Shown here piece by piece: positions 10,250 to 38,193 of a stretch of 64,000 nucleotides of DNA (within the stretch, counting starts at the first letter, position 1; the number at the start of each line of letters is the position of its first letter). The notes below the pieces were generated by a model. That model worked only from the letters and a program-made list of their open reading frames with translations, searched no databases and was not told the DNA's origin. Position numbers and translations under genes: made by a program. The DNA is from Agrobacterium vitis (GTDB lineage Bacteria > Pseudomonadota > Alphaproteobacteria > Rhizobiales > Rhizobiaceae). The DNA lies in NCBI RefSeq assembly GCF_014926405.1, contig NZ_JACXXJ020000003.1:975001-1039000 (forward strand), given 5' to 3'.

Positions 10250-10591
10250 TCAAGCGAAAGACGCAATTAACCGATTTCCGGTTTACGCCAGAAAACATAG
10301 TTTTGTCAGCTCGTTGAATGCCGGATATTGACGAAAGAGCGTGGGGGCATTCTATCGCCTATTCTTTGCTTGATGGGATTGAACGCCCATTAATGGACAT
10401 TTGCAACTATTTTTTTGCCGCTGAAGATGCAAATTTACGCATCCCGCAATACCGCCCAAAATATAGCCGACCAGCCAGGAGACATGCCCATTCCTGCACG
10501 ATTGGCAAGCAGACGAACCTCGGTCGAAGACAAACGCCCAAGATCGTTTCGAGTTGAAGCTGGGCCAGGCCAATATGGGCATTATACCAAG
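10250..10591. other. Non-coding gap between ATPase and MarR genes
   Basis: I see no convincing gene here. Short open frames lack ribosome sites and recognisable motifs. The start of the MarR transcript must lie in this stretch, but I cannot place its promoter. Repeat R2 begins at its right end. Confidence 0.5.
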
Positions 10592-10661
10592 TCTCGAAGA
10601 TGCTCACGCATCCTCGACTTGAAAAAATCTCAAATGCATCAGAAGCTTGAGATATTTTCAA
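10592..10661 (-). repeat. Dispersed repeat R2, copy 2 (inverted)
   Basis: Reverse complement of the element at 8241-8319: AATATCTCAAG, CTGATGCATTTGAGAT, CGAGGATGC-GTGA-GCATCTTCGA. It is about 7 bp shorter between the two hairpins. It lies after the fused ATPase gene and before MarR. Confidence 0.8.
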
Positions 10662-10665
10662 AGGG

Positions 10666-10700
10666 AATACGAAGGGTCATTTACAATGAGCCTTCGTATT
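10666..10700 (-). other. Strong hairpin overlapping the stop codon of the fused ATPase gene
   Basis: AATACGAAGG and CCTTCGTATT form a perfect outer stem, and TCATT/AATGA an inner stem around a 3-nt loop, separated by one G-G mismatch. The gene's TAA (10699-10701) is partly in the stem. A clean U-tract is absent, so it could be a terminator with weak tail or an mRNA 3' protective structure. Confidence 0.5.
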
Positions 10701-12348: not shown

Positions 12349-12434
12349 GAGTTACCCCTTATTGTTGCGCGTCACGTTCTTTTGAAAAGACAGATGCAAA
12401 AAAGATGCCGTAACGCCGCAGGGTCCCCAATCCA

Positions 12435-19086: not shown

Positions 19087-19154
19087 TTTTCCGGCCTCCA
19101 ATGGCGAAGTTGCCTAAAAATACGGCCAGCACTTATTTTTGGCATGATCCCGAA

Positions 19155-19186
19155 GGGTGAGATGCTAAAATTTTCCAATCTCACCC
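19155..19186. promoter_or_regulatory. Candidate operator in the divergent amidase / MalT-like regulator promoter
   Basis: A perfect inverted repeat GGGTGAGAT-N14-ATCTCACCC lies midway in the 146-bp divergent intergenic region. The same 9-mer GGGTGAGAT appears once more just after the regulator gene (21853-21861). Placement and symmetry suit a binding site for the regulator at 19233, but this is inference. Confidence 0.5.
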
Positions 19187-19232
19187 TAAAGAGTGATAGG
19201 CTCAGCGAACTCAATGATTTTCAGGGGGACCT

Positions 19233-21851
19233 GTGCAACGAACGCGCCTTTTAAACAGACGATCTGTGCCGCCCAGCGCTTCGACAGGCCTGATCGACCG
19301 TCCGCGCCTGACGCGCCTGTCGCAGCTTCTCAGCAAACACCGGCTGGCACTCGTTCATGCACCGGCTGGCTCCGGCAAGACCACGCTTCTCGCCCAATGG
19401 CATCGGAGCCTGTCGGATGCCGGGTTTTCGACCGTCTGGTATTCGGCAAGCGAAGACGACAAAGATCCGTTCAATTTCGCCGAGGGCCTGCTCCAGGCAC
19501 TTCAGCAATCGATCGCTGATAATCGCGATCATCTGCCCTCCCTTGATCGCGCCGACGCGCTGCAACGCTTGACGGCTCTGCTCACCGATCAATCCATCCG
19601 CCAGCCGCTGGCCTTGTTTATCGACGATTACCATCTGGCCGAAGGCGGCGATGGTGGCGAGGCGATCAATACGATCCTCGCCAGCCGCTTGCCGAGCCTG
19701 ACCGTCGTGCTCGCCAGCCGCAACCGGCCTGCCATACCCGTTGGCCGGTACCGGGCCAACGGCGAGATGATCGACATTGCCGTGGAAGACCTGCATTTCA
19801 GTGAGGAAGAGACCGAGGCGTTTTTCCGCACCGCCTCCAATGTCGCCTTGACGGCAGACGAAAGCCGCCAGATGCATGATCATACCGAGGGTTGGGCGGT
19901 CGGCCTGCGGCTGGCAGCCCTGGTCACAGGGCGAGCGACGGGCAATTTCGTCGCAGCTGCGCCATCTGGAAGCCATCGCGCATTTGCCGACTATTTCCTG
20001 GAGGAAGTGATTGCCGGACTGCCTGCCGAGGTTTGTGACTTCCTCGCCAAGACCTCCCTGCTGGAAACGCTGAATGCCGACCTCTGCAACGCTGTGACCG
20101 GTCGGCATGACGGGGACCGGATGCTGGCCTTCCTGGAGCAAAGCCAACTGTTTGTCGTTGAGCTTCCGGGAACGCAGCGTTGGTACAAATATCACCATCT
20201 GTTTCAGGAGTTTCTGCAAACCCGCCTTTATGGCGACGACCGGCCTGCTGTCGAAGACATTCACGCCCGCGCCGCGCAATGGTTCATCGACAATGGTTCG
20301 CCGGTCGATGCCGTCCGTCATGCCTTTCTCGCGCGCCAGTCCAAATGGGCGGCGGAGTTGATCGAAACCTACTGTCTGTACGACTATCTCAGCCATGGCC
20401 GTTTTGACACCTATTCCCGCTGGATGCAGCAACTGCCCCGAGAGGCCTGCGAGGAAAGGCCGCTGCTGCTTTTCCTGCACGTGTGGCGATCCATCAACAT
20501 GCGCCGCTTCTTGCAAGCCGAGCAAACCCTTCAGACGATAGAAGCGGCAGCCAGCGACCCCAACAGCCCTGTATCCGTCATCGCGACACGAACCGGCCTT
20601 GATCTCAGCGGACGGCTTCATCTCATGCGGGCGCTTATCGGTGCCTATGGCGGTGATTTCACAGTCGGAAGCTTTCACCTCTCCCAACTGGCCGGAAAAG
20701 AGCTTGACCGGCTGGCTTTTGGACAAGTCGACCTCGACTCCATTCACAGCTATGTCGCCTTCAATCTGGGCAAGCTGGATCTGGCAGAGCGGCTGACATG
20801 GCGGGCAAACGGCGTCTATGACGACATGGCCTGCCATTGGGGCGGGATTCATTCCCGCTGCATTGCCGCCATGTCCTACCTCGCCCGTGCGCTGTTTCAG
20901 GAAGCCCGGCATGTGATTGTCGAAGCCCTGGCGATTGCCGAGCAGAATTTCGGGGAACACTCCTACATGGTCGCCCTGCCCTCGGCGCTTTTGGGACTGA
21001 TTGCCTATGACGACAATGATCTTGAAAAGGCCGAGCGCCTGTGGCGACGGGCGATCCCGGCTGAAAAGGCAACGGATGTTTCCGGGCTGTGCGAACGGAT
21101 CCTCATTGCCACAACCGGTCTCGTGCGGCTTCTCGATATAATTGGCCGGGTCGAGGAGGCAACGGCACTTCTCGTTCGTGCCAGCAGGAGAGCCTATGAG
21201 GCGGAAGATTTTCGCCTCGAATTCCAGCTCGGTATAGAGCGGGCCGACCGGGCCTTTCGTCTCAACAGCCCCGCAGAGGGCCGCCGCGAATGGGAACGGC
21301 TGTCGCTGCAATTGCCCGAGGCGCGCAACAGGTTTCCCTCTTCCGCCTGGCAGATATGGGACCCATTTCGCATTGTCGAGGCCAGAATCCTGCGCAATGC
21401 AGGGCAGATCGATGCGGCAGCGGAAAAGCTGCGGGTGCTTGCCGCAGGGGCGCGGCAGGAAGGCCGTATTCTGATGGCGCGACAGGCAGAAGCGCTCGCC
21501 ACTGTCATCGCGCCCGCCCATGAGACCGAGGGGACGCAGCCTGCGGATCTTGAGGATGACATCATGGCGACGCGGCGCATCTTGCGCGATTTCGTTTCAC
21601 CCGTTGCCGCGTCTCCGAACCCCGGCGGAGGGCAAAGGCAGGAGGCCCGGCTCAGTCTGCGTGGCTCCCTCACCGAGTTGACGCAGCGGGAAGACGACGT
21701 GCTGCAATTGATGCGGTGGGGGCTTTCCAACAGCGAAATCGCCACCAGGCTCGATATCAATTTGAATACCGTGAAATCGCATGCCAAGAACATTTTTGCT
21801 AAGCTCGGCGTGAAAAGCCGAACCCAAGCCGTTCTGAAGACCCTCGAATAG
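19233..21851 (+). CDS. MalT-like LuxR-family ATP-dependent transcriptional regulator
   Basis: 872 residues, typical LAL/MalT length. An N-terminal NTPase has the P-loop APAGSGKT at residues 43-50 and a Walker B-like LALFIDDYH. A middle region of TPR-like helical repeats follows. The C-terminal LuxR helix-turn-helix (LTQREDDVLQLMRWGLSN, then NLNTVKSHAKNIFAKLGVKSRTQA) covers the last 65 residues. The start is GTG with GGGGG upstream. Proteins of this class are activated by an inducer plus ATP and bind promoter repeats. It is divergent from the amidase/peptide-importer operon and is its likely activator. Confidence 0.92.
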   Translation: MQRTRLLNRRSVPPSASTGLIDRPRLTRLSQLLSKHRLALVHAPAGSGKTTLLAQWHRSLSDAGFSTVWYSASEDDKDPFNFAEGLLQALQQSIADNRDHLPSLDRADALQRLTALLTDQSIRQPLALFIDDYHLAEGGDGGEAINTILASRLPSLTVVLASRNRPAIPVGRYRANGEMIDIAVEDLHFSEEETEAFFRTASNVALTADESRQMHDHTEGWAVGLRLAALVTGRATGNFVAAAPSGSHRAFADYFLEEVIAGLPAEVCDFLAKTSLLETLNADLCNAVTGRHDGDRMLAFLEQSQLFVVELPGTQRWYKYHHLFQEFLQTRLYGDDRPAVEDIHARAAQWFIDNGSPVDAVRHAFLARQSKWAAELIETYCLYDYLSHGRFDTYSRWMQQLPREACEERPLLLFLHVWRSINMRRFLQAEQTLQTIEAAASDPNSPVSVIATRTGLDLSGRLHLMRALIGAYGGDFTVGSFHLSQLAGKELDRLAFGQVDLDSIHSYVAFNLGKLDLAERLTWRANGVYDDMACHWGGIHSRCIAAMSYLARALFQEARHVIVEALAIAEQNFGEHSYMVALPSALLGLIAYDDNDLEKAERLWRRAIPAEKATDVSGLCERILIATTGLVRLLDIIGRVEEATALLVRASRRAYEAEDFRLEFQLGIERADRAFRLNSPAEGRREWERLSLQLPEARNRFPSSAWQIWDPFRIVEARILRNAGQIDAAAEKLRVLAAGARQEGRILMARQAEALATVIAPAHETEGTQPADLEDDIMATRRILRDFVSPVAASPNPGGGQRQEARLSLRGSLTELTQREDDVLQLMRWGLSNSEIATRLDINLNTVKSHAKNIFAKLGVKSRTQAVLKTLE

Positions 21852-22011: not shown

Positions 22012-23025
22012 ATGTCGGAGCAGGCCTATGCAAATCTCGATATCCGCATGATGCGCACCCTGCGCTTGCTGCTGACGGAATGCAGCGTATCGCGCACAGC
22101 CGATCTGCTGGGTCAGGCGCAACCGACCGTCAGCCTGACCCTGAAGCGGCTGCGCGATATTTTTCAGGACCCGCTGTTGGTGCGTTCCGGCAGTGCGCTG
22201 GTGCCGACCGAGCGCGGGATGGCACTGCGCTCAGCCATGAATGACATTCTCGGTCGGATCGATACCCACTTGATTTCTCCGACTGCGTTCGATCCCGCCG
22301 TATCCGTTCGTCATTTTCGCGTGGTTGCCAGCAATTGTCTCGGCACCGTCTTCATGCCGCAATTGATCGGCGCGATCACCGACATGGCCCCCGGCATTTC
22401 CATCGACGCCTCCCCGATGCCATCGCAAGACGATCTTCTGTCGGGATTGTCGGAGGGCCGGATCGATGCAGTGATCGGCAATTGGCCCCACCCGCCGGAG
22501 CACCTGCGCATCGCACCGATGCTGAAGACCGATATCGTCTGCATGGTCAGATCCACGCATCGTTTTGCCCGACGTGACCGGGATCGCATCCGGCTTGATG
22601 AATATCTCGAAGAAAGCCATCTGTCGCCGACATCAGAACGAGATGCGCAATTCAGCCCCATCGACGGACGATTGCTCGATCTCGGCGTCAAGCGGCATAT
22701 CCGCGCCACGGTGCCCGAATATTCCATCGCGCCTTACGTGCTGGCCCGCTCAGACCTCGTCTTCACCACCGGACGGCATTTTGCCGAGCAGGTGGCGCAA
22801 ACCTTCCCCTTTGCGGTGCTGGACGCTCCGGTGGAATTGGGGCAGATGCATTTCTATACGCTCTGGCACGACCGCAAACATCATGCCCCCGACCAGGCAT
22901 GGCTGCGCCGGATGATCAAGAATGCCTGTGCAGAGATACAAGCGCTCGACCGCGTCAGCCCCTTGCCTCTCCCGCCGGTGCGCCACATGCACTCCAGTCG
23001 GCAGCCCAGCTGGCAACCAGGCTGA
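22012..23025 (+). CDS. LysR-family transcriptional regulator
   Basis: 337 residues from the ATG at 22012 with an excellent ribosome site (AAAGGAG). The helix-turn-helix is in residues 15-60 (LLLTECSVSRTADLLGQAQPTVSLTLKRLRD). A NodD/LysR-type effector domain follows (RHFRVVASNCLGTVFMPQLIGAITDMAPG). It lies upstream of and co-directional with the PotD-type binding protein (112-nt gap). This is unusual for LysR proteins, which are more often divergent from their target, but the operon downstream is still the obvious candidate target. It could also be autoregulated with it. Confidence 0.9.
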   Translation: MSEQAYANLDIRMMRTLRLLLTECSVSRTADLLGQAQPTVSLTLKRLRDIFQDPLLVRSGSALVPTERGMALRSAMNDILGRIDTHLISPTAFDPAVSVRHFRVVASNCLGTVFMPQLIGAITDMAPGISIDASPMPSQDDLLSGLSEGRIDAVIGNWPHPPEHLRIAPMLKTDIVCMVRSTHRFARRDRDRIRLDEYLEESHLSPTSERDAQFSPIDGRLLDLGVKRHIRATVPEYSIAPYVLARSDLVFTTGRHFAEQVAQTFPFAVLDAPVELGQMHFYTLWHDRKHHAPDQAWLRRMIKNACAEIQALDRVSPLPLPPVRHMHSSRQPSWQPG

Positions 23026-23137
23026 CGCCAGCCCCATCGCATCCAAACGCAATAGACACTATTGCCTTTGCCTTATGGCCGTTTGGATCGAAAGTCCGCA
23101 CACTATCCTCATCGCAACAAGAACCGGATGGGGCTCC

Positions 23138-24220
23138 ATGAAACGGACAGGTATCACACGGCGTGACGTGCTGGCGGGAATGGCGGCGGGTGCTGCCGCA
23201 GGGGTGGTTTCAAACGCGGGCATCGCACGCGCTGCGGTCTCCGACATGGTCTGGGCCACCTGGGACTCCAACGGCCATCCCGAATATGTCGCCGCCTTCG
23301 AAAAGGAAACCGGCGTCAAGGTCAAGCTCTCCTATCTCTCCAGCGAGGACGCACAGTTTGCCGCTCTGAAAACCGGGGCCGCTGCCGATTGGGATATGAT
23401 CAACCCGTCGCTGAACGGCAGTTGGCGCTATATCAAGGCCGGTCTGCTGAAGGAGCTGGACCTGTCAAAAATTCCCAATGCCAGCCTGATGTATGATGTG
23501 TTCAAATCCACGCCGAAGGTGATGGACGATGCCGGCAAGACGTTTGCCATTCCCTATCTCTGGGGCCTGAACCCGATTGTCTACCGCAAGGACAAGTTCG
23601 ACAAGGAGCCGGACTATACCACGCTCTTCGATGCGAAATATTCCGGCCAACTCGCCATGCGTGATTACGCCCTGGAATCCATCGCCATCGCCGGGCTTGT
23701 TGCCGGTGTGCCGCGCGACAAAGTGTTCGTCATGGAGGCCAAGGAACTGGCAGAAGCGAAGAAACTGCTGATTACCCAGAAGCCGCTGTTGCGCACCTAT
23801 TGGCAGACCATCGGCGACCTGACCAATCTCTTCGCCACCGGTGAAGTCTCCTGCGCCTTCTCCTGGCGCGTACCCTATGACGAGCTGCAGGCCAAACTGC
23901 CGATGGGCATGGCCAAGCCGAAGGCTGGCGTGATGGGCTGGTGCGACTGCTTCGGCATGCCTGCCAATCTTTCGCCGGAAAAAACCGAGATCGGCTATAA
24001 ATTCATCAATTATCTGCTTGGACCGAGCTATTCCACCGATGTGGCCCGGATCGGTCATTACGCCACCACCTCCTCTGTCATCAGAGACAAGCTTTCGCAT
24101 GAGGAACAGGCAACGATCTTCGTAGACGATATGGACGTGATGAAATCCTTCATGTGGCCGGTGGCGCCGCCCAATTATTCCGACTGGCTGAAAATCTGGA
24201 ACGAAGTCAAGGCGAGTTGA
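23138..24220 (+). CDS. ABC transporter substrate-binding protein (spermidine/putrescine PotD family)
   Basis: 360 residues with a twin-arginine signal (TRRDVLAGMAAGAAAGVVS), cleaved near residue 30. The mature part matches the PotD/PotF fold: TWDSNGHPEYVAAFEKETGVKVKLSYLSS, WDMINPSLN, and AIPYLWGLNPIVYRKDKF. It would bind a small cationic nitrogen compound in the periplasm. It begins the coupled operon that continues to 31980 and is followed after 3 nt by the ATPase gene. The enzymes downstream suggest a cargo other than plain polyamine. Confidence 0.88.
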   Translation: MKRTGITRRDVLAGMAAGAAAGVVSNAGIARAAVSDMVWATWDSNGHPEYVAAFEKETGVKVKLSYLSSEDAQFAALKTGAAADWDMINPSLNGSWRYIKAGLLKELDLSKIPNASLMYDVFKSTPKVMDDAGKTFAIPYLWGLNPIVYRKDKFDKEPDYTTLFDAKYSGQLAMRDYALESIAIAGLVAGVPRDKVFVMEAKELAEAKKLLITQKPLLRTYWQTIGDLTNLFATGEVSCAFSWRVPYDELQAKLPMGMAKPKAGVMGWCDCFGMPANLSPEKTEIGYKFINYLLGPSYSTDVARIGHYATTSSVIRDKLSHEEQATIFVDDMDVMKSFMWPVAPPNYSDWLKIWNEVKAS

Positions 24221-24223
24221 GGC

Positions 24224-25330
24224 ATGACGCAGGCATGGGATACGACAGCACCGGACCAGAACGCGGGAACCGGTTTGCCGATGCTCTTGTCCGCAAGAGG
24301 CCTCGTTAAGTCCTATGGGCGCAACCGTGCGGTCGATGGCGTGGATCTGGACATTCCAGAACGCGCCTTCACCACCTTTCTCGGCCCCTCCGGCTGCGGC
24401 AAAACGACGATCCTGCGGATGATCGGCGGGTTTGAAACTCCCGATGCCGGCTCACTGGTGCTCGACGGGCGCTCGCTCACCGGCGTGCCCCCCGAGCGAC
24501 GACCGGTGAACACGGTCTTCCAGAATTACGCCCTGTTTCCGCATCTGACCGTGTTCGAGAATGTCGCTTTTTCGCTCACCCTGCGCCGTGGTGCGCAGGA
24601 CCCGGCACCGCGTGTGAAGCGGGCGTTGGACGCCGTTCACATGGGCGAATTCACCAGCCGCTATCCGCATCAGCTATCCGGTGGCCAGCAGCAGCGGGTG
24701 GCGGTGGCCCGCGCCATCATTGCCGAGCCGCATCTGCTGCTGCTCGATGAGCCGCTTTCGGCACTGGATCGCAAGATGCGCGGGCATCTGCAGATCGAGC
24801 TGAAAGACCTGCAACGCCGCCTCGGCATTGCTTTCGTCTATGTCACCCATGACCAGGAAGAAGCCTTTGCGCTGTCGGATATCGTCGTGGTGATGAACAA
24901 GGGCCGCATCGCCCAGAAAGCCGATCCGGTGACGCTTTATGCGCGACCCGCCGACACGTTCGTGGCAGATTTCATCGGGTCAGCCAGCCTGGTGGAGGGC
25001 GAGATCCTGGCGCTTGGCACAGAGACGGCAACCATCGGGACGCCGCTTGGAACCATCACCGCTCCCGCCATCCATGGTCTTGCGAAAGGCGAACGCGCCG
25101 CCCTGGTGATACGGCCTGAGCATTTACGGCTTGGCAACGCGGACGGTCACGGCCTTGTTCTTTCCGCCCAGGTTCGGCATGTCGTCTTCAAGGGCGACCG
25201 CTACCTGATCGAAGCGGATATTTCAGGCGTGACGGTACGGCTGATGGCAGACCGGCCAGCGGAACCAGGATCAACGATCGCGATGACGCTCGATCCCGCT
25301 TCATGCTTCATCACGAGGCTTGCATCATGA
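24224..25330 (+). CDS. ABC transporter ATP-binding protein (PotA family)
   Basis: 368 residues. Walker A GPSGCGKT is at 54-61, Q-loop VFQNYALFPHLTV, signature LSGGQ at 150-154, then Walker B LLLLDEPLSALD. The C-terminal TOBE domain (RPEHLRLG region onward) is present, as in PotA-type ATPases. Its stop overlaps the next start (ATGA). It energises import through the permeases at 25327 and 26202. Confidence 0.92.
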   Translation: MTQAWDTTAPDQNAGTGLPMLLSARGLVKSYGRNRAVDGVDLDIPERAFTTFLGPSGCGKTTILRMIGGFETPDAGSLVLDGRSLTGVPPERRPVNTVFQNYALFPHLTVFENVAFSLTLRRGAQDPAPRVKRALDAVHMGEFTSRYPHQLSGGQQQRVAVARAIIAEPHLLLLDEPLSALDRKMRGHLQIELKDLQRRLGIAFVYVTHDQEEAFALSDIVVVMNKGRIAQKADPVTLYARPADTFVADFIGSASLVEGEILALGTETATIGTPLGTITAPAIHGLAKGERAALVIRPEHLRLGNADGHGLVLSAQVRHVVFKGDRYLIEADISGVTVRLMADRPAEPGSTIAMTLDPASCFITRLAS

Positions 25331-26205
25331 CGCTCGCTCTCAGCCGTGCGCATCTGGCGCTTCCCGTCTCACTGCTGCTGGTCCTGGGCTGTCTCTTGCC
25401 CCTGATGCTGCTGGTAGCCTTCAGTCTGTTCACGGTGGATCTGGATGCTTTCGTCATGGTGCCGGACCTCTCCCTGCACAGCTGGGGGCAGATGATGTCC
25501 AATCCGGTCTTTGCCCTGTTGATCGGCAAGGCGGTTCTATCCGGACTGGTCACCGCCCTTCTGGCGGCGGTGCTCGGTTATCCCATTGCGCTTGCCATTT
25601 CCCGGCTGCCTATCGCCTGGAAGGGCATCGCCCAGATCGTATTGTTGACGCCGCTTTATACCGGCGAAATCGTCCGCATCTATGCCTGGCGGGTGGTTCT
25701 GGGCTCGGAAGGGCTGGTCAATGCGGTGCTGAAATGGCTTGGGCTGGTCGATCAGCCCGTCAAATTCCTGTTGTTTTCTCCCTTCACCACTCATCTCGTC
25801 CTTCTCTATAACTGCCTGCCCTTTATGGTGTTACCGATCTGGATTTCGGCGGAATTGATCGATCGACGGTTGATCGAAGCGGCCCGCGACCTCGGCGCCC
25901 GCCCGTTCGATGCCTTCACCCGAGTAATCTTTCCGCTGACGGTGCCGGGCCTTGCTGTCGGCCTGCTGGCAGTCTTCGCGCTCGCCGCCGGTGACATGCT
26001 GACACCAAGCATGCTGGGCGGCACCTCCGGCGCAACCCCGATGGCGATGATCGACAACCTGTTCGGCACCGCCTTCGACTGGCCGCTTGCCTCTGCCTTG
26101 GCGTTGAGCCTGCTGATCGCGCTGTTTGCAACGGCAAGCGCTATGGCCTGGCTGCTGCTGCGGCTGAAAGGCGCGCGGGCCGTCCTGCAGGGGGGCTTGA
26201 AATGA
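25327..26205 (+). CDS. ABC transporter permease (PotB family)
   Basis: 292 residues from the ATG at 25327, chosen because it overlaps the preceding stop (ATGA), like the other junctions in this operon. About six membrane segments. The EAA loop (RLIEAARDLGARPFDAFTRVIFPLTVPG) contacts the ATPase. Family features include LYTGEIVRIYAWRVVLG. Heterodimer partner of the PotC-like protein downstream. Confidence 0.9.
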   Translation: MTLALSRAHLALPVSLLLVLGCLLPLMLLVAFSLFTVDLDAFVMVPDLSLHSWGQMMSNPVFALLIGKAVLSGLVTALLAAVLGYPIALAISRLPIAWKGIAQIVLLTPLYTGEIVRIYAWRVVLGSEGLVNAVLKWLGLVDQPVKFLLFSPFTTHLVLLYNCLPFMVLPIWISAELIDRRLIEAARDLGARPFDAFTRVIFPLTVPGLAVGLLAVFALAAGDMLTPSMLGGTSGATPMAMIDNLFGTAFDWPLASALALSLLIALFATASAMAWLLLRLKGARAVLQGGLK

Positions 26206-26999
26206 ACCGGCGGATCACCCTGACTCTTGGCCTCGCTGTCGGCTTCTTCTATCTGCCGATCATCGTATTGGCGCTGTTTTCCTTCAATGCCTCCAGCCTG
26301 ATGGCCTTTCCCTTAAGCGGCTTCACGCTGTCCTGGTACAAAGACCTGTTCAGCAATGCGACCTTTATCAACGGCTTCCTGACCAGTTTCCTGATCTCCC
26401 AGCCGGTCGGCATCCTGGCGGCCTTGATCGGTCTGTGCGCGGCCCTGGCACTTGCCTCGCCCAGGCTGCACCTTCGCCCGGTCTTCATCTTTCTGATCAT
26501 CCTGCCGTTTCTGGTGCCGAAAACGGTGCTGTCAATTGCCCAGGCCATGCTGATGAACTGGGTGGGACTGGGACGCGGGGCCGTTGCTCTCATCGCTGCG
26601 CAAACCTTGATCGCCATCCCGTTTGCCACCACCATCATCGCCGCCACCGTCATCCGCCTCGACAAACGGCTGGAAGATGCCGCCCGCGATCTGGGGGCCA
26701 CCCCTTGGCAAAGCTTTCGCCGTATCGTTCTGCCGCAGTTGAAGGGTGCCATCGGCGCTGCCTATTCCATTGGCGTTATTCTATCGCTGGCCGATCTGAC
26801 CATCTCGATGTTTCTCGCCGGTCGCACCCAGCCGCTGTCGCTGATTATCGCCTCGCAATTCCGGCGCGAGCTGAAGCCCGACCTCAACGCCATGCAGGTC
26901 GTGGTGCTTTTGCTGACAGCCTTGATCGTCATTGTCAGCGAGCTTTATCGCCGCAACCGGCACAAACACAGTATTTCAGGACCCTCAGACCATGCTTGA
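26202..26999 (+). CDS. ABC transporter permease (PotC family)
   Basis: 265 residues with about six membrane helices. It begins LTLGLAVGFFYLPIIVLALFSFNAS, a standard PotC start, and carries the EAA loop RLEDAARDLGATPWQSFRRIVLPQL. It overlaps the PotB-like gene by 4 nt, and its last 8 nt overlap the flavoprotein gene. The enzyme genes downstream are therefore translated as part of the same message as the transporter. Confidence 0.9.
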   Translation: MNRRITLTLGLAVGFFYLPIIVLALFSFNASSLMAFPLSGFTLSWYKDLFSNATFINGFLTSFLISQPVGILAALIGLCAALALASPRLHLRPVFIFLIILPFLVPKTVLSIAQAMLMNWVGLGRGAVALIAAQTLIAIPFATTIIAATVIRLDKRLEDAARDLGATPWQSFRRIVLPQLKGAIGAAYSIGVILSLADLTISMFLAGRTQPLSLIIASQFRRELKPDLNAMQVVVLLLTALIVIVSELYRRNRHKHSISGPSDHA

Positions 27000-28473
27000 T
27001 CCTCTCCCCGATGCCGTGGCCGCACTTGCTCGTTTAAAGGACGCCGCAAGAGCCGATCTTGCCACCCTCGCCTATCCGGCGGCTCCCTGGCTTGCGCCAC
27101 TGCCCGTCTCTGCCCCATCCGTCTGCGATGTCGCCATCGTTGGCGGGGGACAGTCGGCGATCACCATAGCGGCGGCGCTGAAATGGGATGGGGTCCAGCA
27201 GATCCGCCTGTTCGACAGCGCCCCGGCTGGCTCGGAAGGACCATGGACCACCTTTGCCCGAATGGAAGAATTGCGCACCCCCAAAACGGCGGTGGGCAAC
27301 GAATTCAACGTCGCCAATCTCTCGGTGCGTCGCTGGTTCGAAACCCGCTATGGCATTGAGGCCTGGCAGACGCTGGGCCGCATCCCCCGCACCGACTGGA
27401 AGGCCTATCTGGACTGGTATGCCGAGGTTTTCGACATTGCCATTACCAATGAGACCAGCGTGACGGACGTCTCGCCCGAAGGCGACCTGATGGCCGTCAC
27501 CACTCTGCGGCAGGGCCATGTCGAGCGCCATCTGGCGCGGGCGGTGGTTCTGGCCACCGGATTTGACGGCGCAGGCGCCTGGCGGGTACCGCGCTTCATT
27601 TCCGACGCTTTGCCATCGCAGCGCTATGACCATACCAATGGACCGGTGGACTTTAAGCGTTTGAAGGGCAAGAGGATCGGCATTCTCGGCCACGGCGCCT
27701 CGGCCTTCGACAATGCCGTCACCGCGCTGAACAGCGGTGCTGCCTCGGTCGATCTCTGCTTTCGCCGGACACGTCTGCCGCGCACCAATCCGCACCGCGC
27801 ACTGGAAGCACCGCCGCTTCTCAGCGGTTTCGGGGCGCTGTCCGACCATACCCGCTGGCAAATAGCGCGGTTTTTCCGCAGCACCGACCAGCCGCCACCG
27901 GTGCGCGCCTTTGAGACAGCAATGGCCCTGCCAGGCTTTACCCTGCGCCCCGCAACGCCTTGGCTGGAAGTGTATGAAAAGGACGGCGCAGTCTCGGTGA
28001 AAACGCCCGATGGCGTGCTGGTCTTCGATCATCTGTTGCTGGCAACAGGCATGGATGTCGATCTCTCAGCGCGCCCGGAATTGAAAACCCTGGCCCCGAG
28101 GATCGCGGTTTGGGGTGAGCATTTCACGCCTTCAGCCGGAGAAGAAGACGCCCGGCTGTCGCAATTGCCCTATCTCGACCCCTATTATGCGTTCCTGCCG
28201 AAGGTGCCGGAAGACGGCTGGGTCAGCCGGGTTTTTGCCTTCAACAGCGCGAGTTTCGTCAGCCACGGCCCGCATTCCACCTCGATCAGCGGCCATCGCT
28301 ATGCCCTGCCAAGGGTGGTGCGCGGCATCGAGCGCCGGCTGCTGCTGGATCAGGAAAACGCAATCCTGCCGGGGCTGGAGGCCTATTGCTCGCAGGACCT
28401 GCCGGTCAGCGATGATTTCGAAGCTGATATTGCTGCCCGAAATGCAGCACGGATGATGGAAAAAGCATCATGA
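26992..28473 (+). CDS. FAD/NAD(P)-dependent flavoprotein (monooxygenase-like)
   Basis: 493 residues from the ATG at 26992, overlapping the permease stop by 8 nt. Two dinucleotide folds are visible: VAIVGGGQSA at 47-56 for FAD and ILGHGASA at 231-238 for NAD(P)H, with an ATG motif (188-190) between. This is the layout of class-B flavin monooxygenases and ornithine/lysine N-hydroxylases. The exact FxGxxxHxxxW fingerprint was not seen, so Baeyer-Villiger or N-oxygenase activity is not proven. No signal peptide; cytoplasmic. In context it probably oxygenates or oxidises the imported compound at an early step. A member of the same broad fold with reductase activity is the alternative. Confidence 0.8.
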   Translation: MLDPLPDAVAALARLKDAARADLATLAYPAAPWLAPLPVSAPSVCDVAIVGGGQSAITIAAALKWDGVQQIRLFDSAPAGSEGPWTTFARMEELRTPKTAVGNEFNVANLSVRRWFETRYGIEAWQTLGRIPRTDWKAYLDWYAEVFDIAITNETSVTDVSPEGDLMAVTTLRQGHVERHLARAVVLATGFDGAGAWRVPRFISDALPSQRYDHTNGPVDFKRLKGKRIGILGHGASAFDNAVTALNSGAASVDLCFRRTRLPRTNPHRALEAPPLLSGFGALSDHTRWQIARFFRSTDQPPPVRAFETAMALPGFTLRPATPWLEVYEKDGAVSVKTPDGVLVFDHLLLATGMDVDLSARPELKTLAPRIAVWGEHFTPSAGEEDARLSQLPYLDPYYAFLPKVPEDGWVSRVFAFNSASFVSHGPHSTSISGHRYALPRVVRGIERRLLLDQENAILPGLEAYCSQDLPVSDDFEADIAARNAARMMEKAS

Positions 28474-29288
28474 TCAGGTCTTTCTATTGGGTGGATCATT
28501 CAACCCAGGCCTTTGCCGAACGTGATCTCTCAAAAACCGTGGTGGTGCTTCCCATCGCCGCTGTCGAGCAACACGGGCCGCATCTGCCCGTCGATGTCGA
28601 TGCGGCCATAAATGCGGAGATCATCCGGCGCACGGTGGCGCGCTTGCAACCGGACACCGACGTCCTGTTCCTGCCGCCCATGGCGGTCGGAAAATCCGAC
28701 GAGCATATCGCCTTCCCCGGCACGCTGGCAATCTCCGGCGAGACCCTGCGCCATGTGTGGCTGGATCTGGCCCGCAGCGTCAAGCGTGCGGGTGCCGCGA
28801 AATTGATCCTGTTCAATTCCCATGGCGGCCAGATGGCGCTGATGGACATCGTCTGCCGCGATATCCGTATCGAGCTTGGCATGTTGGCGGTTTCCTGTTC
28901 CTGGTTTCGCATCGCCCCGGTGGACGACCTGTTCTCACGCGACGAAATCGACCACGGCATCCATGGCGGCGACATCGAAACCAGCATGATGCTGGCAATC
29001 GCGCCGGAGCGGGTGGCCATGGACAAAGCCGAGAATTTCGTCCCCCTGACGGTGGCAATTGAGAAATCCGGCAGCATGCTGACAGCAGAAGGGGCCGTTG
29101 GTTTCGGCTGGCAGGCGCAGGATCTTCATCCGGCGGGCGTCTGCGGCAATGCCAGCAATGCAACGGCGCAGAAAGGCCAGATCGTGCTTGATCGCGCCGC
29201 CGATGGGCTTGTCGGCCTGATTGCTGCGACACAGGCCTTCGACCTTTTGCAACTGACATCGCAGACGCGCTTTTCGAACCCGTGCTGA
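28470..29288 (+). CDS. Creatininase-family amidohydrolase
   Basis: 272 residues, close to family length (about 260). The metal-binding start of creatininase is intact (LPIAAVEQHGPHLPVDVDA, with Glu33, His35 and Asp44). The later ligands are present in LFNSHGGQM and in GIHGGDIETSMML. Known members open the ring of creatinine, hydrolyse formamides (ArfB, FAPy deformylase) or act in mycofactocin maturation. No mycofactocin genes are nearby, so a small-molecule amide or lactam is likely. It overlaps the flavoprotein by 4 nt. The product would fit hydrolysis of an amide made by the preceding oxidation; that is inference. Confidence 0.87.
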   Translation: MIRSFYWVDHSTQAFAERDLSKTVVVLPIAAVEQHGPHLPVDVDAAINAEIIRRTVARLQPDTDVLFLPPMAVGKSDEHIAFPGTLAISGETLRHVWLDLARSVKRAGAAKLILFNSHGGQMALMDIVCRDIRIELGMLAVSCSWFRIAPVDDLFSRDEIDHGIHGGDIETSMMLAIAPERVAMDKAENFVPLTVAIEKSGSMLTAEGAVGFGWQAQDLHPAGVCGNASNATAQKGQIVLDRAADGLVGLIAATQAFDLLQLTSQTRFSNPC

Positions 29289-29302
29289 GCGAGGAGAACA
29301 TC

Positions 29303-30349
29303 ATGATGGCGCCAGCCAAAGCAGCGGCGGTCGAGGCATTGCTCGCCGAAATGCCCGCCTGGGGATCGGAATTTACCGGCACCTTCGCCAACCACGCCCC
29401 GATGGTGCTCTGTGCCCTGGCCGAAATTGGCGGCACACCTGCCCAAATGCGCCGGTTTTTCGACCACTATAAAAGCTATAAAAAACTGCTGCCCTTCGGC
29501 CAGCCATCCACGCCGCTCGATGCGGCAAGCTGGCGCTCAGTTCTCGGTCAACGCGAGCGGGAGCCGGATCTGCGGTTGTTTTTCTCCGCTGAAGTCTCCC
29601 GGCTCGGAATAGAGGCAGCGCTCAAGCACTATCTGCCGGATCTGGCACCGGGCGTGGCGGCAAGCGCCTTCCACGCCCTGATGCGCACGGCCTATGGCGT
29701 GTTGCGCCAAAAAGAAGATGATATCGCCATTGCGCTTGCCTATTGGGCGGCCACCTATCTGGCACTGCCGCCTGCGACCGGCGCAAGCCCTGTCACCGAT
29801 GATCCGGCAGAAGTGCTGCGCCGGGTCACGCTGATCGCCCCCATGCACACGCTGACGCTTCATGATCTTCTGTGGCAGAACATGCGTGACGCTGCCGCCC
29901 TGCCCGACTTTGTTCCTGTTGTAGACTGGCTAGAGATCGGCTCCGATACGATGGAAAAAATGGCTGATGTCGCCATCCGCTTATTTGCGGCCACCCAGCA
30001 TTTCGCCGCCCTTCATGTGGTCACAGGCCTGCATTGGATACGCCTGCTCAGCCCCTACTGCGACCGACAAACCCAGGGCACCCTGCTGCGGGTGTTCTGG
30101 CAGGCGATTGCGGCGCTAATGCGGGAACTGGACTTTCCAACCCTGCCGCCGGAGGAGGAGATCTCCCGCTGGCGTGCGTTGCCCGCCCCGGATTGGCCGG
30201 AGATTTTTGCGGCAGCAGCTGCCAGCTATGACGAACACGATATCAGCCTTGCCTATTCGGCAGCACAGGAAATGACGATCTATGCAGACCCGCTCTATCG
30301 CGTGGCCGCGGCGCGGCGTCTCGGCCTGATTGGAGACTATCGGATATGA
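29303..30349 (+). CDS. Questin-oxidase-family protein (DUF4243-like)
   Basis: 348 residues from the ATG at 29303, which has GAGGAG 6 nt upstream. The start (FANHAPMVLCALAEIGGTPAQMRRFFDHYKSYK) and the helical histidine-rich body (LHDLLWQNM, AATQHFAALHVVTGLHWIRLL) match the questin oxidase-like family. The fungal founder catalyses Baeyer-Villiger ring cleavage of an anthraquinone; bacterial members are largely uncharacterised. It has no cofactor motif that I can recognise and no signal peptide. It is embedded in an operon with a flavoprotein and two amidohydrolases, which suggests an oxidative or ring-cleaving step. Confidence 0.72.
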   Translation: MMAPAKAAAVEALLAEMPAWGSEFTGTFANHAPMVLCALAEIGGTPAQMRRFFDHYKSYKKLLPFGQPSTPLDAASWRSVLGQREREPDLRLFFSAEVSRLGIEAALKHYLPDLAPGVAASAFHALMRTAYGVLRQKEDDIAIALAYWAATYLALPPATGASPVTDDPAEVLRRVTLIAPMHTLTLHDLLWQNMRDAAALPDFVPVVDWLEIGSDTMEKMADVAIRLFAATQHFAALHVVTGLHWIRLLSPYCDRQTQGTLLRVFWQAIAALMRELDFPTLPPEEEISRWRALPAPDWPEIFAAAAASYDEHDISLAYSAAQEMTIYADPLYRVAAARRLGLIGDYRI

Positions 30350-31980
30350 CGCAGGCCATTGCGATGCCGGACAATCCCGGCGCAGATTGCATCATCGAGG
30401 CCGGCACCGTGCTGACCGGCATTGATGCCGGCAGCGGGCTGACCGGCATTGAGGCCGGCACCGTGCTGACCGGCCTTGGCACGGATGGCAAAATGACCAT
30501 GCGCCACGATGTCGGCATCCGCGTCGAGAAGGGCATGATCGCCCAGATCGGTCCGATGGAAGCGGTCGGCTATGGCAACGACCACCTGCCACGCTTTGGC
30601 TCACGCCGGATGATCGCCATGCCGGGCCTGGTCAACGCGCATCACCATTTCGGTGTGACACCATTGATGCAAGGCGTGCCTTTCGCGCCGCTGGAACTGT
30701 GGCTGCCGCAATTTCGCGCCATGCGCCGCATCGACCAGAGGCTGGATACGCTTTATTCGGCCATCGAAATGCTGGAAAGCGGCACGACGACTGTGCAGCA
30801 CATCCATAGCGGCTTTTCCGGCACGCCTGACAGCTGGATGCAGACGGCAGAAGCAACCATCTCGGCCTATGGCGAAATCGGCATGCGGCTCGGCTATTGC
30901 TTCATGATCCGCGACCGCAATATTCTGTCCTACGAGCCGGATGCGGATATCTTGAGCCGCCTGCCCGCCAAGGCGCGAGACTGGATTGCGCCGCAGCTGG
31001 CCGCTGCCGATATTCCAGTTCCCCGGCTGATGGAATTCTATACCGATCTGCGCGCCCGTTTCATGAAGGGTAGCCCACAGCATATCCGCATGAATCTTGC
31101 GCCCGCCAATCTGCACTGGTGCAGCGATGATGCCTTGCAGACGATTTTCGAGACCGCCAAGGCGGCAGGTGGAAATGTCCACATGCACCTTCTCGAAACC
31201 GAGCGGCAGGCGGAATTTGCCCGGCGTACTTATGGCCGCAGCGCGGTTCAGCATCTGCAAAAACTGCAATGCCTTGACGCCAATGTAACGCTTGGCCACG
31301 GCAACTGGATGAGTGGCGAGGATCTCGACATCATCGCCTCCTGCGGCTGTACCATCTGCCACAACGCCTCTTCCGGCCTCAGGCTCGGCAGCGGGATTGC
31401 GCCCGTCAACGAGATGCGACGGCACGGCATTCCAGTGGCCCTCGGCATCGACCAGTCGAATATTGCCGACGACCGCGACATGACACTGGAAATGAAACTG
31501 GTCTGGGCGCTGCACCGGGAAACCGGCCTCTGGAACGATAGGCCGGATGCGGGCGCGGTGCTGCAAATGGCCAGCGAACATGGTGCGGCCTCCGCCGGAT
31601 TTGGTGGATTTACGGGACGTCTGGAGCCCGGCTGGCAGGCCGATATCGTGCTAATGGACAAGGACCGCATTGCCCGCCCGGCTATCAATTCACGAACGCC
31701 ACCCGTGGAAGCGCTGCTGCATCGCGGTGGGCGTCACGCCATAGAACAGGTCTTCGTCGGTGGGCGGCTGGTGGTGGATGGCGGTCGCGTGACAACTGTT
31801 GACCGCGATGCTGTCATGGCGGAAATCGAGGCTATTCTATCACGCCCGGAAACGGATGCGGACCGGTATGCTTGGCAGGCGGTAGAAACCCTGCTGCCGC
31901 ATCTCGAATCCAGCCTGCAACAGTTGCGCCTTGGGGCTGGTTATCGTCGTTACCGCTACAATTCGATGTCGGATCAGTAA
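30346..31980 (+). CDS. Amidohydrolase, ATZ/TRZ deaminase/chlorohydrolase-like
   Basis: 544 residues, a metal-dependent TIM-barrel hydrolase. Ligands are visible: HxH at 99-101, HxxE at 281-284, His318 (LGHGNW) and Asp369 (GIDQSN). This single-metal set is typical of deaminases and s-triazine hydrolases of subtype III. The N-terminal strand region carries an in-frame 27-bp unit repeated three times (30394-30474), enlarging it compared with usual members (about 450-480 residues). The start overlaps the previous stop (ATGA). It is the last gene of the operon, and its 3' end overlaps the convergent codA-like gene by 7 nt. Probably deaminates a nitrogen heterocycle or hydrolyses a guanidino group. 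Confidence 0.87.
   Translation: MTQAIAMPDNPGADCIIEAGTVLTGIDAGSGLTGIEAGTVLTGLGTDGKMTMRHDVGIRVEKGMIAQIGPMEAVGYGNDHLPRFGSRRMIAMPGLVNAHHHFGVTPLMQGVPFAPLELWLPQFRAMRRIDQRLDTLYSAIEMLESGTTTVQHIHSGFSGTPDSWMQTAEATISAYGEIGMRLGYCFMIRDRNILSYEPDADILSRLPAKARDWIAPQLAAADIPVPRLMEFYTDLRARFMKGSPQHIRMNLAPANLHWCSDDALQTIFETAKAAGGNVHMHLLETERQAEFARRTYGRSAVQHLQKLQCLDANVTLGHGNWMSGEDLDIIASCGCTICHNASSGLRLGSGIAPVNEMRRHGIPVALGIDQSNIADDRDMTLEMKLVWALHRETGLWNDRPDAGAVLQMASEHGAASAGFGGFTGRLEPGWQADIVLMDKDRIARPAINSRTPPVEALLHRGGRHAIEQVFVGGRLVVDGGRVTTVDRDAVMAEIEAILSRPETDADRYAWQAVETLLPHLESSLQQLRLGAGYRRYRYNSMSDQ
30394..30474 (+). repeat. In-frame 27-bp tandem triplication
   Basis: Three contiguous 27-bp units encode IEAGTVLTG, IDAGSGLTG and IEAGTVLTG. 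The outer units encode identical peptides and differ by one silent base (ATC/ATT); the middle one differs at a few positions. The unit lies where amidohydrolases have their N-terminal beta-sandwich strand (typically one I-x-G-T/A-x-V/L turn), so it appears to be a local duplication in coding DNA. Confidence 0.95.
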
Positions 31981-33263
31981 ACGGGTACGTAATCGCGCCC
32001 GCTATCGACAGCCGCAGGGCGGCCTTCCAGAAACAGTTCTCCAATGCGGGGCGCAGTGCGGGAAATCACCTTGCCGCCCTTGACCACAAAAAGGCGCGAT
32101 GGCTTGAGGCGAAGGGCTTCAAACACGTCAGCGGCCTGCAACACCACGAGATCGGCCTTGCAGCCGACCTCTAAACCATAGCCTTCGAGACCCATGGTTT
32201 TTGCCGAATTGACGGTGAGAGCATTGAAAATCTGTCTCTTGTCGTCGAGCCCGCCCATTTGTGCGACGTGGATGGCCATGTGGCCAACCTCCAGCATGTC
32301 GGCCGATCCCATTGAATACCATGGGTCCATGGTGCAATCCTGACCGAAGGAGACGTTCAGGCCTGCCGCCATCAGTTCGCGCACCCGCGTCATGCCACGG
32401 CGTTTCGGATAGGTATCGTGGCGGCCTTGCAGCATGATGTTGATCAGCGGATTGGGAATGACGTTGATCTGCGCTTCCGCCATCAGCGGAATAAGCTTGG
32501 AGACGTAATAATTGTCCATGGAATGCATGGAGGTGAGATGCGATCCTGCCACCCGGCCTTGCAACCCATGGCGAATGGTTTCCGCCGCCAGCGTCTCGAT
32601 ATGGCGAGACATCGGATCGTCGGTTTCGTCGCAATGGATATCCACGGGCAGGCCCCGCTCGGCTGCAATGCGGCAGAGAGCCTCCAGCGACAACCGCCCC
32701 TCCTCCATCGTGCGCTCGAAATGCGGGATGCCGCCGACGATATCGATGCCCATATCCAGCGCCCTGTTCAGCGAATCCACGCCACCTTCCGCGCGGTAAT
32801 ATCCGTCCTGCGGAAAGGCCACGAGCTGCAACTGAATATAGGGTGCCACCCGTTCGCGCACCTCAATCAAAGCTTCTGCCGTCACCAGTCTTGGATCGGA
32901 TGTATCGACATGGCTGCGGATAAACAGCAGGCCTTGGGAGACGGCGAGATCGCAGTAGCGCAGGGCGCGCTCAACCAGCGCTTCCTTGGTCAGCAGCGGT
33001 CGCAACTCGCCCCAGAGCGCGATACCTTCCAGCAATGTGCCAGACACATTCATGCGCGGCATGCCAAGTGACAGCGTTGCATCCATATGAAAATGCGGAT
33101 CGCAAAATGGTGGGCTGACGAGACGGCCCGTTGCATCGATCTCCTCGCCGCACACTGCATCGAGATGCTTTTCGATGGCGGTAATGCGTCCCGCTGAGAG
33201 GCCAATATCGAAACCCTTGCGGCCATCTGGCAGGTTGGCATTGCGAATGATGAGATCGAACAT
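31974..33263 (-). CDS. codA: Cytosine deaminase-like amidohydrolase (CodA family)
   Basis: 429 residues, the length of E. coli CodA. Every known active-site residue of that enzyme has a counterpart shifted by exactly four positions. These are His57 and His59 (metal), Gln152, His210 (metal), Glu213 (proton shuttle), His242 and Asp309 (metal). The reaction is hydrolytic deamination of cytosine to uracil, or of related compounds such as isocytosine or creatinine. Cytoplasmic. It is the last gene of the BMP-type importer operon, 16 nt after the permease at 33280, so its substrate is probably what that importer brings in. Its 3' end overlaps the convergent amidohydrolase gene. Confidence 0.88.
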   Translation of the reverse strand: MFDLIIRNANLPDGRKGFDIGLSAGRITAIEKHLDAVCGEEIDATGRLVSPPFCDPHFHMDATLSLGMPRMNVSGTLLEGIALWGELRPLLTKEALVERALRYCDLAVSQGLLFIRSHVDTSDPRLVTAEALIEVRERVAPYIQLQLVAFPQDGYYRAEGGVDSLNRALDMGIDIVGGIPHFERTMEEGRLSLEALCRIAAERGLPVDIHCDETDDPMSRHIETLAAETIRHGLQGRVAGSHLTSMHSMDNYYVSKLIPLMAEAQINVIPNPLINIMLQGRHDTYPKRRGMTRVRELMAAGLNVSFGQDCTMDPWYSMGSADMLEVGHMAIHVAQMGGLDDKRQIFNALTVNSAKTMGLEGYGLEVGCKADLVVLQAADVFEALRLKPSRLFVVKGGKVISRTAPRIGELFLEGRPAAVDSGRDYVPVY

Positions 33264-33279
33264 GGTGAGTTTCCTTGCT

Positions 33280-34224
33280 TCAGCGCTCGCCGCGCCGATA
33301 GGGTTGCATCAACGCCTGTGGCACGCGGGCGCGGCGCGCCATCACCGCAAGGGCGGCGATGGACAGGATGTAAGGGGTCATCAGAAACAGTTGGTAGGGC
33401 ACGGCCCCACCCAGCGCCGTTTGCAGGCGCAGTTGAAAACCATCGAAAAAGGCAAAAAGCAGCGCACCCAGCAGCGCCCGGCCCGGTCGCCATGAGGAAA
33501 ACACCACGAGTGCAATGCAGATCCAGCCGCGACCCTGCACCATGGTCGGGAAAAAGCTGTTGAACGCCGACAGCGTCAGGAAGGCCCCGGCCATGCCCAT
33601 CAGGGCCGAGCCAGCAATCACGGCACCATAGCGCACCGCCATTGGATTAATCCCTTGCGCTTCCGCCGCATGGGGGTTTTCACCCGTCATGCGGATGGCA
33701 AGGCCCAGCGGCGTGCGAAAGATCACGTAGGCCAAAATGACAGCCAGCAGAATGGCGAGATAGGTTGGCGGTGTCTGCACGAAAAAGGCAGGGCCGACAA
33801 AGGGAAGATCGCTGAGACCCGGAATGGCAATCGGCTTGAACGGAACAATGGTTGGCGGCGATCCTGCAACTGGAACCGCCAAACGGAAGGTGTAATAGCT
33901 GAAGCTGGACGCAAACAGCGTGATCCCGAGGCCACAGACATGCTGGGATAGCCCGAGCGTGACCGTCAAAAGCGCATGCAATGCACCAAAAACACCGCCC
34001 GTCAGTGCGGCAATCAGCAGGCCGGTCCATAGATCGGCACCGTGATAGACCGATAACCAGCCAATCATCGCGCCAAAGGTCATGATGCCTTCGATGCCGA
34101 GATTAAGCACCCCTGCCCGTTCGCACAATAAAGCGCCCAGCGTGCCGAAAATCAGCGGCGTCGCAATCCTGAGGACGGCAGCCCAGAGACCCGTTGAAGC
34201 AAGGATGTCCATCATGGCGCTCAT
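33280..34224 (-). CDS. BMP-type ABC transporter permease (nucleoside/nucleobase class), second subunit
   Basis: 314 residues, about eight to ten membrane segments. It resembles the YufQ/NupQ half of BMP-type importers. Landmarks are LIFGTLGALLCERAGVLNLGIEGIMTFGAM near the start and IRMTGENPHAAEAQGINPMAVRYGAVIAGSALMGMAGAFLTL in the EAA-like region. It overlaps the first permease gene by 4 nt. With that protein it forms the channel for a nucleobase-like substrate. Confidence 0.9.
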   Translation of the reverse strand: MSAMMDILASTGLWAAVLRIATPLIFGTLGALLCERAGVLNLGIEGIMTFGAMIGWLSVYHGADLWTGLLIAALTGGVFGALHALLTVTLGLSQHVCGLGITLFASSFSYYTFRLAVPVAGSPPTIVPFKPIAIPGLSDLPFVGPAFFVQTPPTYLAILLAVILAYVIFRTPLGLAIRMTGENPHAAEAQGINPMAVRYGAVIAGSALMGMAGAFLTLSAFNSFFPTMVQGRGWICIALVVFSSWRPGRALLGALLFAFFDGFQLRLQTALGGAVPYQLFLMTPYILSIAALAVMARRARVPQALMQPYRRGER

Positions 34225-35270
34225 CGGACAATCCTGTATTGGGTGAAAAACAGCGCGATCAGCATGGTCAGCAGCGAGAGCGCCACGGTCACATCGGCAA
34301 TATAGCTGGGAATGCCCATGGCGCGGCTCATGCCGTCTGCACCCACAAACATGGTGGCCGTAAACAGCGCCGCCAGCACAACGCCCAGCGGATTGAGATT
34401 GGCCAACATGGCCACCACAATGCCCGAATAGCCATAGCCGGGAGAGAGATCCGTCGTCACATAGCCCTTGACGCCCATGACTTCCACTGCCCCTGCAAGC
34501 CCCGCAAGGCCACCGGAAATGCAGGCAACTGTGACCAGCGTGCGGCCGAGCGGCACGCCCGCAAACACTGCCCCTGCCGGGTTAAGGCCCGCAGCTCTTG
34601 AGCGAATGCCAAATACTGTGCGCTGTTGAACAAAATGCAGCACAAGAGCCAGCACCACGGCAATGACGAGGCCCAAATGCAGGCGTGAGCGCGAAAGCAG
34701 CTTTGGCAGCATCGCAGCATCGGCCACCGATTGCGATTGCGGCCAACCAAAAGCCATCGGGTCTTTCAATACCGTATCAATCAGCATTGAAACGAACAGC
34801 ACCGCTACGAAATTGAGCAGCAGGGTCGTCACCACTTCATCCACGGAAAAGCGAAGGCGTAGCCAAAGCGGAACGAGCAACAGAACCATGCCCGCGAGCG
34901 CACCAAGGATCAACAGAGCCGGAATCTGGATGACTGGAGAAAAATCGCTCAAAAGATGCGAACTTGCCGCCGCAACGGTGATGGCACCGAGATAAAGCTG
35001 GCCCTCGGCTCCAATATTCCACAGCCTTGCCCGAAACGCCACTGCCGCCGAAAGACCGGTGAGTATCAGGGGCGTCGCGCGGGTCAGTGTTTCCGTGGTC
35101 GAGAGGCGCGAGCCGAAAGCACCGATCAGGATACGCCAATAGGCTTCCAGAACCGGTACGCCAGCAATGGCAATGAGAATGCCCGAAATTGCGAGAGCTG
35201 CCGCAATGGCCATGATCGGCGTGGCGATGACCAGCACGAGGGGGCGATGTTCGCGTCGCTCAAACCGCAT
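34221..35270 (-). CDS. BMP-type ABC transporter permease (nucleoside/nucleobase class), first subunit
   Basis: 349 residues, YufP/NupP-like. Features are LTRATPLILTGLSAAVAFRARLWNIGAEGQLYLGAI, VDEVVTTLLLNFVAVLF, and the coupling loop IRSRAAGLNPAGAVFAGVPLGRTLV. About eight to ten helices. The start overlaps the ATPase stop by 11 nt and the stop overlaps the next permease by 4 nt. Confidence 0.9.
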   Translation of the reverse strand: MRFERREHRPLVLVIATPIMAIAAALAISGILIAIAGVPVLEAYWRILIGAFGSRLSTTETLTRATPLILTGLSAAVAFRARLWNIGAEGQLYLGAITVAAASSHLLSDFSPVIQIPALLILGALAGMVLLLVPLWLRLRFSVDEVVTTLLLNFVAVLFVSMLIDTVLKDPMAFGWPQSQSVADAAMLPKLLSRSRLHLGLVIAVVLALVLHFVQQRTVFGIRSRAAGLNPAGAVFAGVPLGRTLVTVACISGGLAGLAGAVEVMGVKGYVTTDLSPGYGYSGIVVAMLANLNPLGVVLAALFTATMFVGADGMSRAMGIPSYIADVTVALSLLTMLIALFFTQYRIVR

Positions 35271-38186: not shown

Positions 38187-38193
38187 GGTTGGC

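Follow-up and report, generated by a model that had tools for sequence, protein, structure and literature searches.

BTG13, AflY, and the hydroquinone dioxygenase PaD are the solved relatives of the questin-oxidase family, and the iron site of the BTG13 type is formed by four histidines and a carboxylated lysine. The other described systems closest to the locus considered here are the class B N-hydroxylating flavin monooxygenases, such as PvdA, SidA, and KtzI, and the cyanuric acid/triuret/biuret pathway. We analyzed a stretch of 64,000 nucleotides (nt) from Agrobacterium vitis (RefSeq assembly GCF_014926405.1, contig NZ_JACXXJ020000003.1, positions 975,001 to 1,039,000), referred to below as the window. 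It holds a tightly packed operon of about 10 kb that encodes a LysR regulator, a Pot-type ATP-binding cassette (ABC) importer, a flavoprotein, a creatininase-family protein, a questin-oxidase-family protein, and an ATZ/TRZ amidohydrolase. We give an even chance to the reading that this is a LysR-regulated catabolic operon, which imports and oxidizes a nitrogen-rich compound, likeliest an aminopyrimidine-containing heterocycle, and then passes it to hydrolases. The families are known, and the operon with its unusual oxygenase core appears to be undescribed; the preliminary description of the locus knew of no pathway with this set, and we likewise found no description of the gene set in the open-access literature, among the matches listed.

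A conserved operon

A check of open reading frames and Pfam families found all nine genes intact, on the forward strand (+), and in the order claimed in the preliminary description, including the LysR-family gene that precedes the others (22012-23025; PF03466 and PF00126 above cut-off). The genes had been described as coupled through overlaps of 4 to 8 nt. This proved right at five junctions: PotA/PotB (4 nt), PotB/PotC (4 nt), PotC/flavoprotein (8 nt), flavoprotein/creatininase (4 nt), and questin/ATZ (4 nt). The binding-protein and ATPase genes, however, are separated by a gap of 3 nt, and an overlap of the creatininase and questin genes, of 7 nt, arises only with a GTG start at 29282. The motif AGGAGA stands upstream of an ATG at 29303, and a questin-family protein counted from this ATG has 348 residues, as have its three closest homologues, which makes 29303 the probable start and a gap of 14 nt the likelier arrangement. 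A spacer of 112 nt lies between the LysR and binding-protein genes, and the 3′ end of the ATZ gene reaches 7 nt into a convergent cytosine-deaminase-family gene.

Gene contexts were mapped for 26 loci, nine of which (L021, L022, L025, L026, L028, and L038 to L041, with L028 being A. vitis itself) have the order of the window, here called type A. As annotated for L021, it runs LysR, binding protein, PotA-, PotB-, and PotC-like proteins, flavoprotein, creatininase family, an optional CocE/NonD hydrolase and CDA-type deaminase, questin family, and ATZ. Because the order repeats in these nine other loci, with questin-family proteins 66 to 95% identical to that of the window, it is not due to chance, and the operon is confirmed as a real conserved gene set. 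The questin-family protein is 95 to 100% identical in three A. vitis records, one of which is chromosome 2; a scan of genome contigs yielded five close loci only. Conserved co-occurrence of the whole set, which had been proposed as a check, is thus found in full at nine other loci, but the importer differs among loci that share the enzymes.

The two-enzyme core

The stable core is narrower than the whole set and consists of the flavoprotein and the questin-oxidase-family protein. The latter (29282-30349, +, with the probable start at 29303) scores 94.8 bits against PF14027 (cut-off, 27), and its predicted fold is that of the BTG13/AflY/PaD-type non-heme iron dioxygenases. In the alignment, BTG13 K377 corresponds to S322 and BTG13 H58 to M41. 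Serine in place of the lysine was found in the window, in 38 of 47 locus rows, and in all 120 close homologues; methionine in place of the histidine was found in 45 of the 47 rows, those of the lysine type included. The K377-to-Ser replacement is limited to one clade, and the H58-to-Met replacement is common to nearly all bacterial relatives seen. On a more far-reaching reading, which we consider unlikely, the protein would have a new type of metal site in the BTG13 fold and act without a carboxylated lysine. L122 (3915-5312) encodes a bacterial member of PF14027 that agrees with BTG13 at both places, with histidine at the H58 position and lysine at the K377 position. An order-level match, L126, is interrupted by a stop, and its lysine was read from the second piece alone. 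Designed DHT03 proteins also appeared in the questin profile search, with a short matched stretch that we took as chance.

The flavoprotein (26992-28473, +; PF13434/PF13738/PF13454) is a putative FAD/NAD(P) monooxygenase of the PvdA/SidA type: its predicted fold matches the class B N-hydroxylating monooxygenases, in keeping with the two dinucleotide folds noted earlier. A sequence search against PDB chains at E 0.01 found none. Relatives of the flavoprotein recur in another operon (L074, L081, L082, L084, L086, and L087), together with an ABC importer, CMD-like and peroxidase-related genes, and an octopine/nopaline-dehydrogenase-family gene. Two small Rhizobiaceae genomes (2.4 and 1.0 Mb; L078 and L079) keep the family, at 38% identity, beside a polysaccharide-deacetylase-family gene.

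Among 297 Rhizobiaceae genomes, the questin-family protein was found in 16 and a flavoprotein homologue (E 1e-20) in 72; all 16 questin-positive genomes have the flavoprotein (hypergeometric P of 3.5e-11, with kinship ignored). In 15 of the 16 the two genes share a contig and stand within about 4 kb of each other; in G252, whose assembly is split into about 1,070 contigs, they fall on separate ones. The pair is fused in three genomes (G770, G762, and G690) as one frame of 838 to 873 residues, with the flavoprotein domains followed by PF14027. A Pfam search at the level of the order gave PF14027 in 22 of 297 genomes, and contexts were taken for the 20 that were new to the survey. Across the survey the flavoprotein lies within the fetched stretch at 33 of 38 serine-type loci, and two serine-type genomes (G252 and G854) have it on another contig. 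Eight lysine-type loci showed none of 18 tabulated partners, and none of their eight genomes has a flavoprotein match. A class-wide search gave questin matches in 10 of 385 genomes, the home genome included; contexts were inspected for five of the other nine, all of them lysine type, the remaining four (G305, G383, G387, and G523) being weak matches. Among plasmid records, 334 matched the flavoprotein and 85 the questin-family protein, and surroundings were inspected for four and three of these, respectively.

Sister clusters, proposed pathway, and rival readings

The core pair also occurs in sister clusters (type B), with a sugar-type ABC importer, FGGY kinase, BtpA/SgcQ, SDR, DeoR, and cytosine-deaminase-like amidohydrolases. 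With thresholds chosen for this analysis, partners were tabulated for the 38 serine-type loci. A sugar-type importer was found at 26, cytosine-deaminase-like amidohydrolases at 23, FGGY and DeoR at 15 each, SDR at 14, BtpA at 13, ATZ at 13, and the creatininase family at 12, followed by the gamma-glutamyltransferase family and CocE (7 each), CDA-type deaminase (5), and 8-oxoguanine deaminase (2). BiuH-like genes (14 loci) and allophanate hydrolase genes (13 loci) all fall among the 26 sugar-importer loci, and both are absent from 27 control loci (8 of the lysine type and 19 with a flavoprotein or ATZ homologue and no questin-family gene). This pattern, next to an oxygenase pair followed by deaminases and amide hydrolases, suggests that an aminopyrimidine, purine, or pterin-like ring is opened oxidatively. 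The allophanate hydrolase of L043 meets the TIGR02713 equivalog (683 bits; cut-off, 511). The BiuH-like neighbor misses the BiuH equivalog NF050097 (271 of 370 bits), although this was the best family in the scan, and its nearest PDB chain is the biuret hydrolase 6xjm (E 6e-70). A sister-cluster protein of L023 lies above the 8-oxoguanine deaminase equivalog cut-off.

Mixed loci join the two types: L042 and L130 hold questin-family, ATZ, flavoprotein, and type B amidohydrolase genes, and L135 has a core fusion with FGGY, BtpA, and ATZ-like genes and a type B amidohydrolase. On a Pleomorphomonas plasmid, the gene for an ATZ protein (55% identical) overlaps by 4 nt a second amidohydrolase gene, whose product shares 64% identity with an amidohydrolase of L023; the core pair is not listed in that plasmid stretch. 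The preliminary description was to be refuted by finding the enzymes elsewhere without this transporter and with unrelated substrates, and this applies in part. The core pair does occur with another importer, but the chemistry looks related, since the core is still accompanied by deaminase-family amidohydrolases and often by biuret- and allophanate-hydrolase genes.

We propose that a small nitrogen-rich compound would enter through the Pot-family importer and be oxidized by the core pair, in which an NAD(P)H/FAD monooxygenase with the N-hydroxylase fold would work with a partner of BTG13/AflY/PaD fold that lacks the metal-site lysine. The opened product would be dismantled by the creatininase-family amidohydrolase and the ATZ/TRZ deaminase, joined in relatives by the CocE/NonD hydrolase, the CDA-type deaminase, and cytosine-deaminase-like amidohydrolases. 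On chemical grounds, cleavage of the ring bond next to a carbon that bears an amino group would release the N-C-N-C-N unit as biuret, so that this part would end as biuret or allophanate plus ammonia. We infer that the substrate is most likely a heterocycle with an aminopyrimidine part (an oxidized purine, a pterin, or similar), that the questin-family protein probably binds a metal, that the reactions probably run in this order in the operon, and that the operon of the window may share the end products of its sister clusters. The sequence of oxygenation, amide or ring opening, and deamination suggested in the preliminary description fits the gene families of this conserved import and degradation operon.

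Several observations weigh against this reading. With its metal-site residues changed, the questin-family protein may have lost the dioxygenase reaction. The biuret link is seen in sister clusters only: none of the 12 core loci without a sugar importer, all nine type A loci included, has BiuH-like or allophanate-hydrolase genes. The 38 serine-type loci are related and non-independent, several coming from one genus, and G794, G868, and G822, serine-type genomes that all belong to a single genus, have no flavoprotein match at E 1e-10. To our knowledge, no member of the operon has a known activity. The Pot importer would suit a cation too, and flavoprotein homologues without a questin partner sit beside octopine-type dehydrogenase genes in 5 of 11 loci and, in further cases, with AhpD/CMD-like/peroxidase-related or peptide-importer genes.

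The importer and the octopine-type dehydrogenases would also suit a cationic or amino-acid-like substrate (a polyamine, betaine, opine, or modified amino acid), whose amine the flavoprotein would N-hydroxylate and from which the hydrolases would strip acyl, guanidine, or amide groups, with no heterocycle involved; ornithine, putrescine, and cadaverine N-hydroxylases are the nearest solved folds of the flavoprotein. We consider this rather unlikely, because sister clusters combine this core with a sugar-type importer and with genes for 8-oxoguanine deaminase, cytosine-deaminase-like and BiuH-like proteins, and allophanate hydrolase, and because the questin-family partner has the fold of a ring-cleaving dioxygenase. 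That fold, shared with BTG13, AflY, and PaD, could instead mean that the core opens a hydroquinone-like carbocyclic aromatic, as the fungal relatives do, with the hydrolases cutting linkers. Identity to these three is just 14 to 17%, however, serine stands at the K377 position, and the recurring neighbors are nitrogen-compound hydrolases, so that such a role seems most improbable. A narrow operon for urate or an oxidized purine, with the flavoprotein as an HpyO-like urate hydroxylase, would agree with the JGI name FAD-dependent urate hydroxylase on 6 of 120 listed flavoprotein homologues and with the fusion of one homologue, P0306, to a ureidoglycolate-lyase domain (39.9 bits; cut-off, 23). 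The JGI names are automatic, and the home genome already has a PuuD-family urate oxidase and OHCU decarboxylase elsewhere, which makes plain urate unlikely as the sole substrate; we set plain urate catabolism aside as the main role and regard the narrow urate operon as very unlikely.

If the aminopyrimidine reading is right, the operon would encode a hitherto undescribed pathway by which plant-associated bacteria scavenge nitrogen oxidatively, the host being a grapevine-associated Agrobacterium. It would give bacterial questin-oxidase-family proteins a physiological setting and would present a ring-cleaving-dioxygenase fold in which the metal-site lysine was replaced and the replacement retained. 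Through the biuret and allophanate enzymes of the sister clusters, the origin of natural biuret and triuret becomes testable with two purified proteins.

Other genes and comparison with known systems

The importer comprises a PotD-like solute-binding protein (23138-24220, +; PF13416, 98.9 bits), a PotA-like ATPase (24224-25330, +; PF00005 and PF08402), a PotB-like permease (25327-26205, +; PF00528 at the cut-off, 26.4 bits), and a PotC-like permease (26202-26999, +; PF00528). PotB and PotC are the best NCBIfam models for the two permeases, below cut-off in each case. All four proteins fall short of the curated PotD, PotA, PotB, and PotC equivalogs (88.6 of 582, 357 of 482, 153 of 348, and 138 of 326 bits), and the ATPase lies narrowly under the polyamine subfamily model (339 of 356 bits). 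Polyamine catabolism was rejected on these family models, and for the cationic substrate of the preliminary description we found no backing except Pot-family membership. Creatinine catabolism was rejected likewise: the creatininase-family amidohydrolase (28470-29288, +; PF02633, 233 bits) reaches 90.3 of the 235 bits set for true creatininase (TIGR04448).

The ATZ/TRZ-type amidohydrolase, of a deaminase family (30346-31980, +; PF01979), is under every NCBIfam cut-off listed, including that of 8-oxoguanine deaminase (NF006055; 166.9 of 532 bits). Its N-terminus (30346-30450) has some 30 added residues with a repeated VLTG motif, and most relatives align from near residue 35. Eight loci have the ATZ protein alone (seven at 38 to 43% identity and one at 61%); an Asp/Glu/hydantoin-racemase-family gene is found at five, and a clear polysaccharide-deacetylase-family gene, which we take to be allantoinase-like, at four.

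The 17-nt palindrome GCAATAGACACTATTGC (23049-23065), a candidate LysR operator, is perfect and lies in the spacer between the LysR and binding-protein genes. It recurs 5′ of the binding-protein gene in all nine type A loci inspected, with 0 to 2 mismatches. A scan of the home genome for this pattern gave two perfect matches and, with up to one mismatch allowed, 14 places, compared with 6 when the pattern was reversed as a control. A wider LysR regulon was discounted, as the home-genome scan gave no match at the convergent cytosine-deaminase/BMP operon or at the cyanurate/triuret operon described below.

The convergent cytosine-deaminase-family amidohydrolase (31974-33263, −; NF005748, 790 bits; cut-off, 438) is a possible associate outside the operon, which it adjoins in A. 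vitis only, among the loci tabulated. It belongs to a group (31974-39180, −) with a BMP-type ABC importer (two permeases, an ATPase, and a PF02608 binding protein) and an amidase. This amidase, without its importer, also adjoins the type A operon in L038. On the other side of the operon (17665-21851) lie an amidase gene and a divergent gene for an 872-residue protein, MalT/LuxR-like by eye, a type that also adjoins the operon in L028.

The core enzymes stand apart from their described relatives in sequence and company. The flavoprotein is 16 to 20% identical to the class B N-hydroxylating monooxygenases listed (PvdA, SidA, and KtzI) and, unlike them, adjoins or is fused to a PF14027 protein. 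Unlike BTG13, AflY, and PaD, to which it is only 14 to 17% identical, the questin-family protein is partnered by a flavoprotein and has nitrogen-compound hydrolases around it. The ATZ protein shares the amidohydrolase superfamily with 8-oxoguanine deaminase and the other ATZ/TRZ amidohydrolases, and shows 27% identity with the protein of L023 that scores as 8-oxoguanine deaminase. The home-genome contig that carries the window holds, at a distance of about 390 kb, another operon (L149; C3:597001-616500, 2222-12710) with a BMP-type importer, a carbon-nitrogen hydrolase, two BiuH-like genes, an AtzD-family ring-opening hydrolase (504 bits), and allophanate hydrolase, which looks like a cyanurate/triuret operon. 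With AtzD in that other operon, we rejected s-triazine catabolism by the operon of the window. The window's operon thus differs from the cyanuric acid/triuret/biuret pathway (AtzD, TrtA, BiuH, and AtzF) in having no AtzD, BiuH, or AtzF of its own, whereas the sister clusters have BiuH-like and allophanate-hydrolase genes beside the core.

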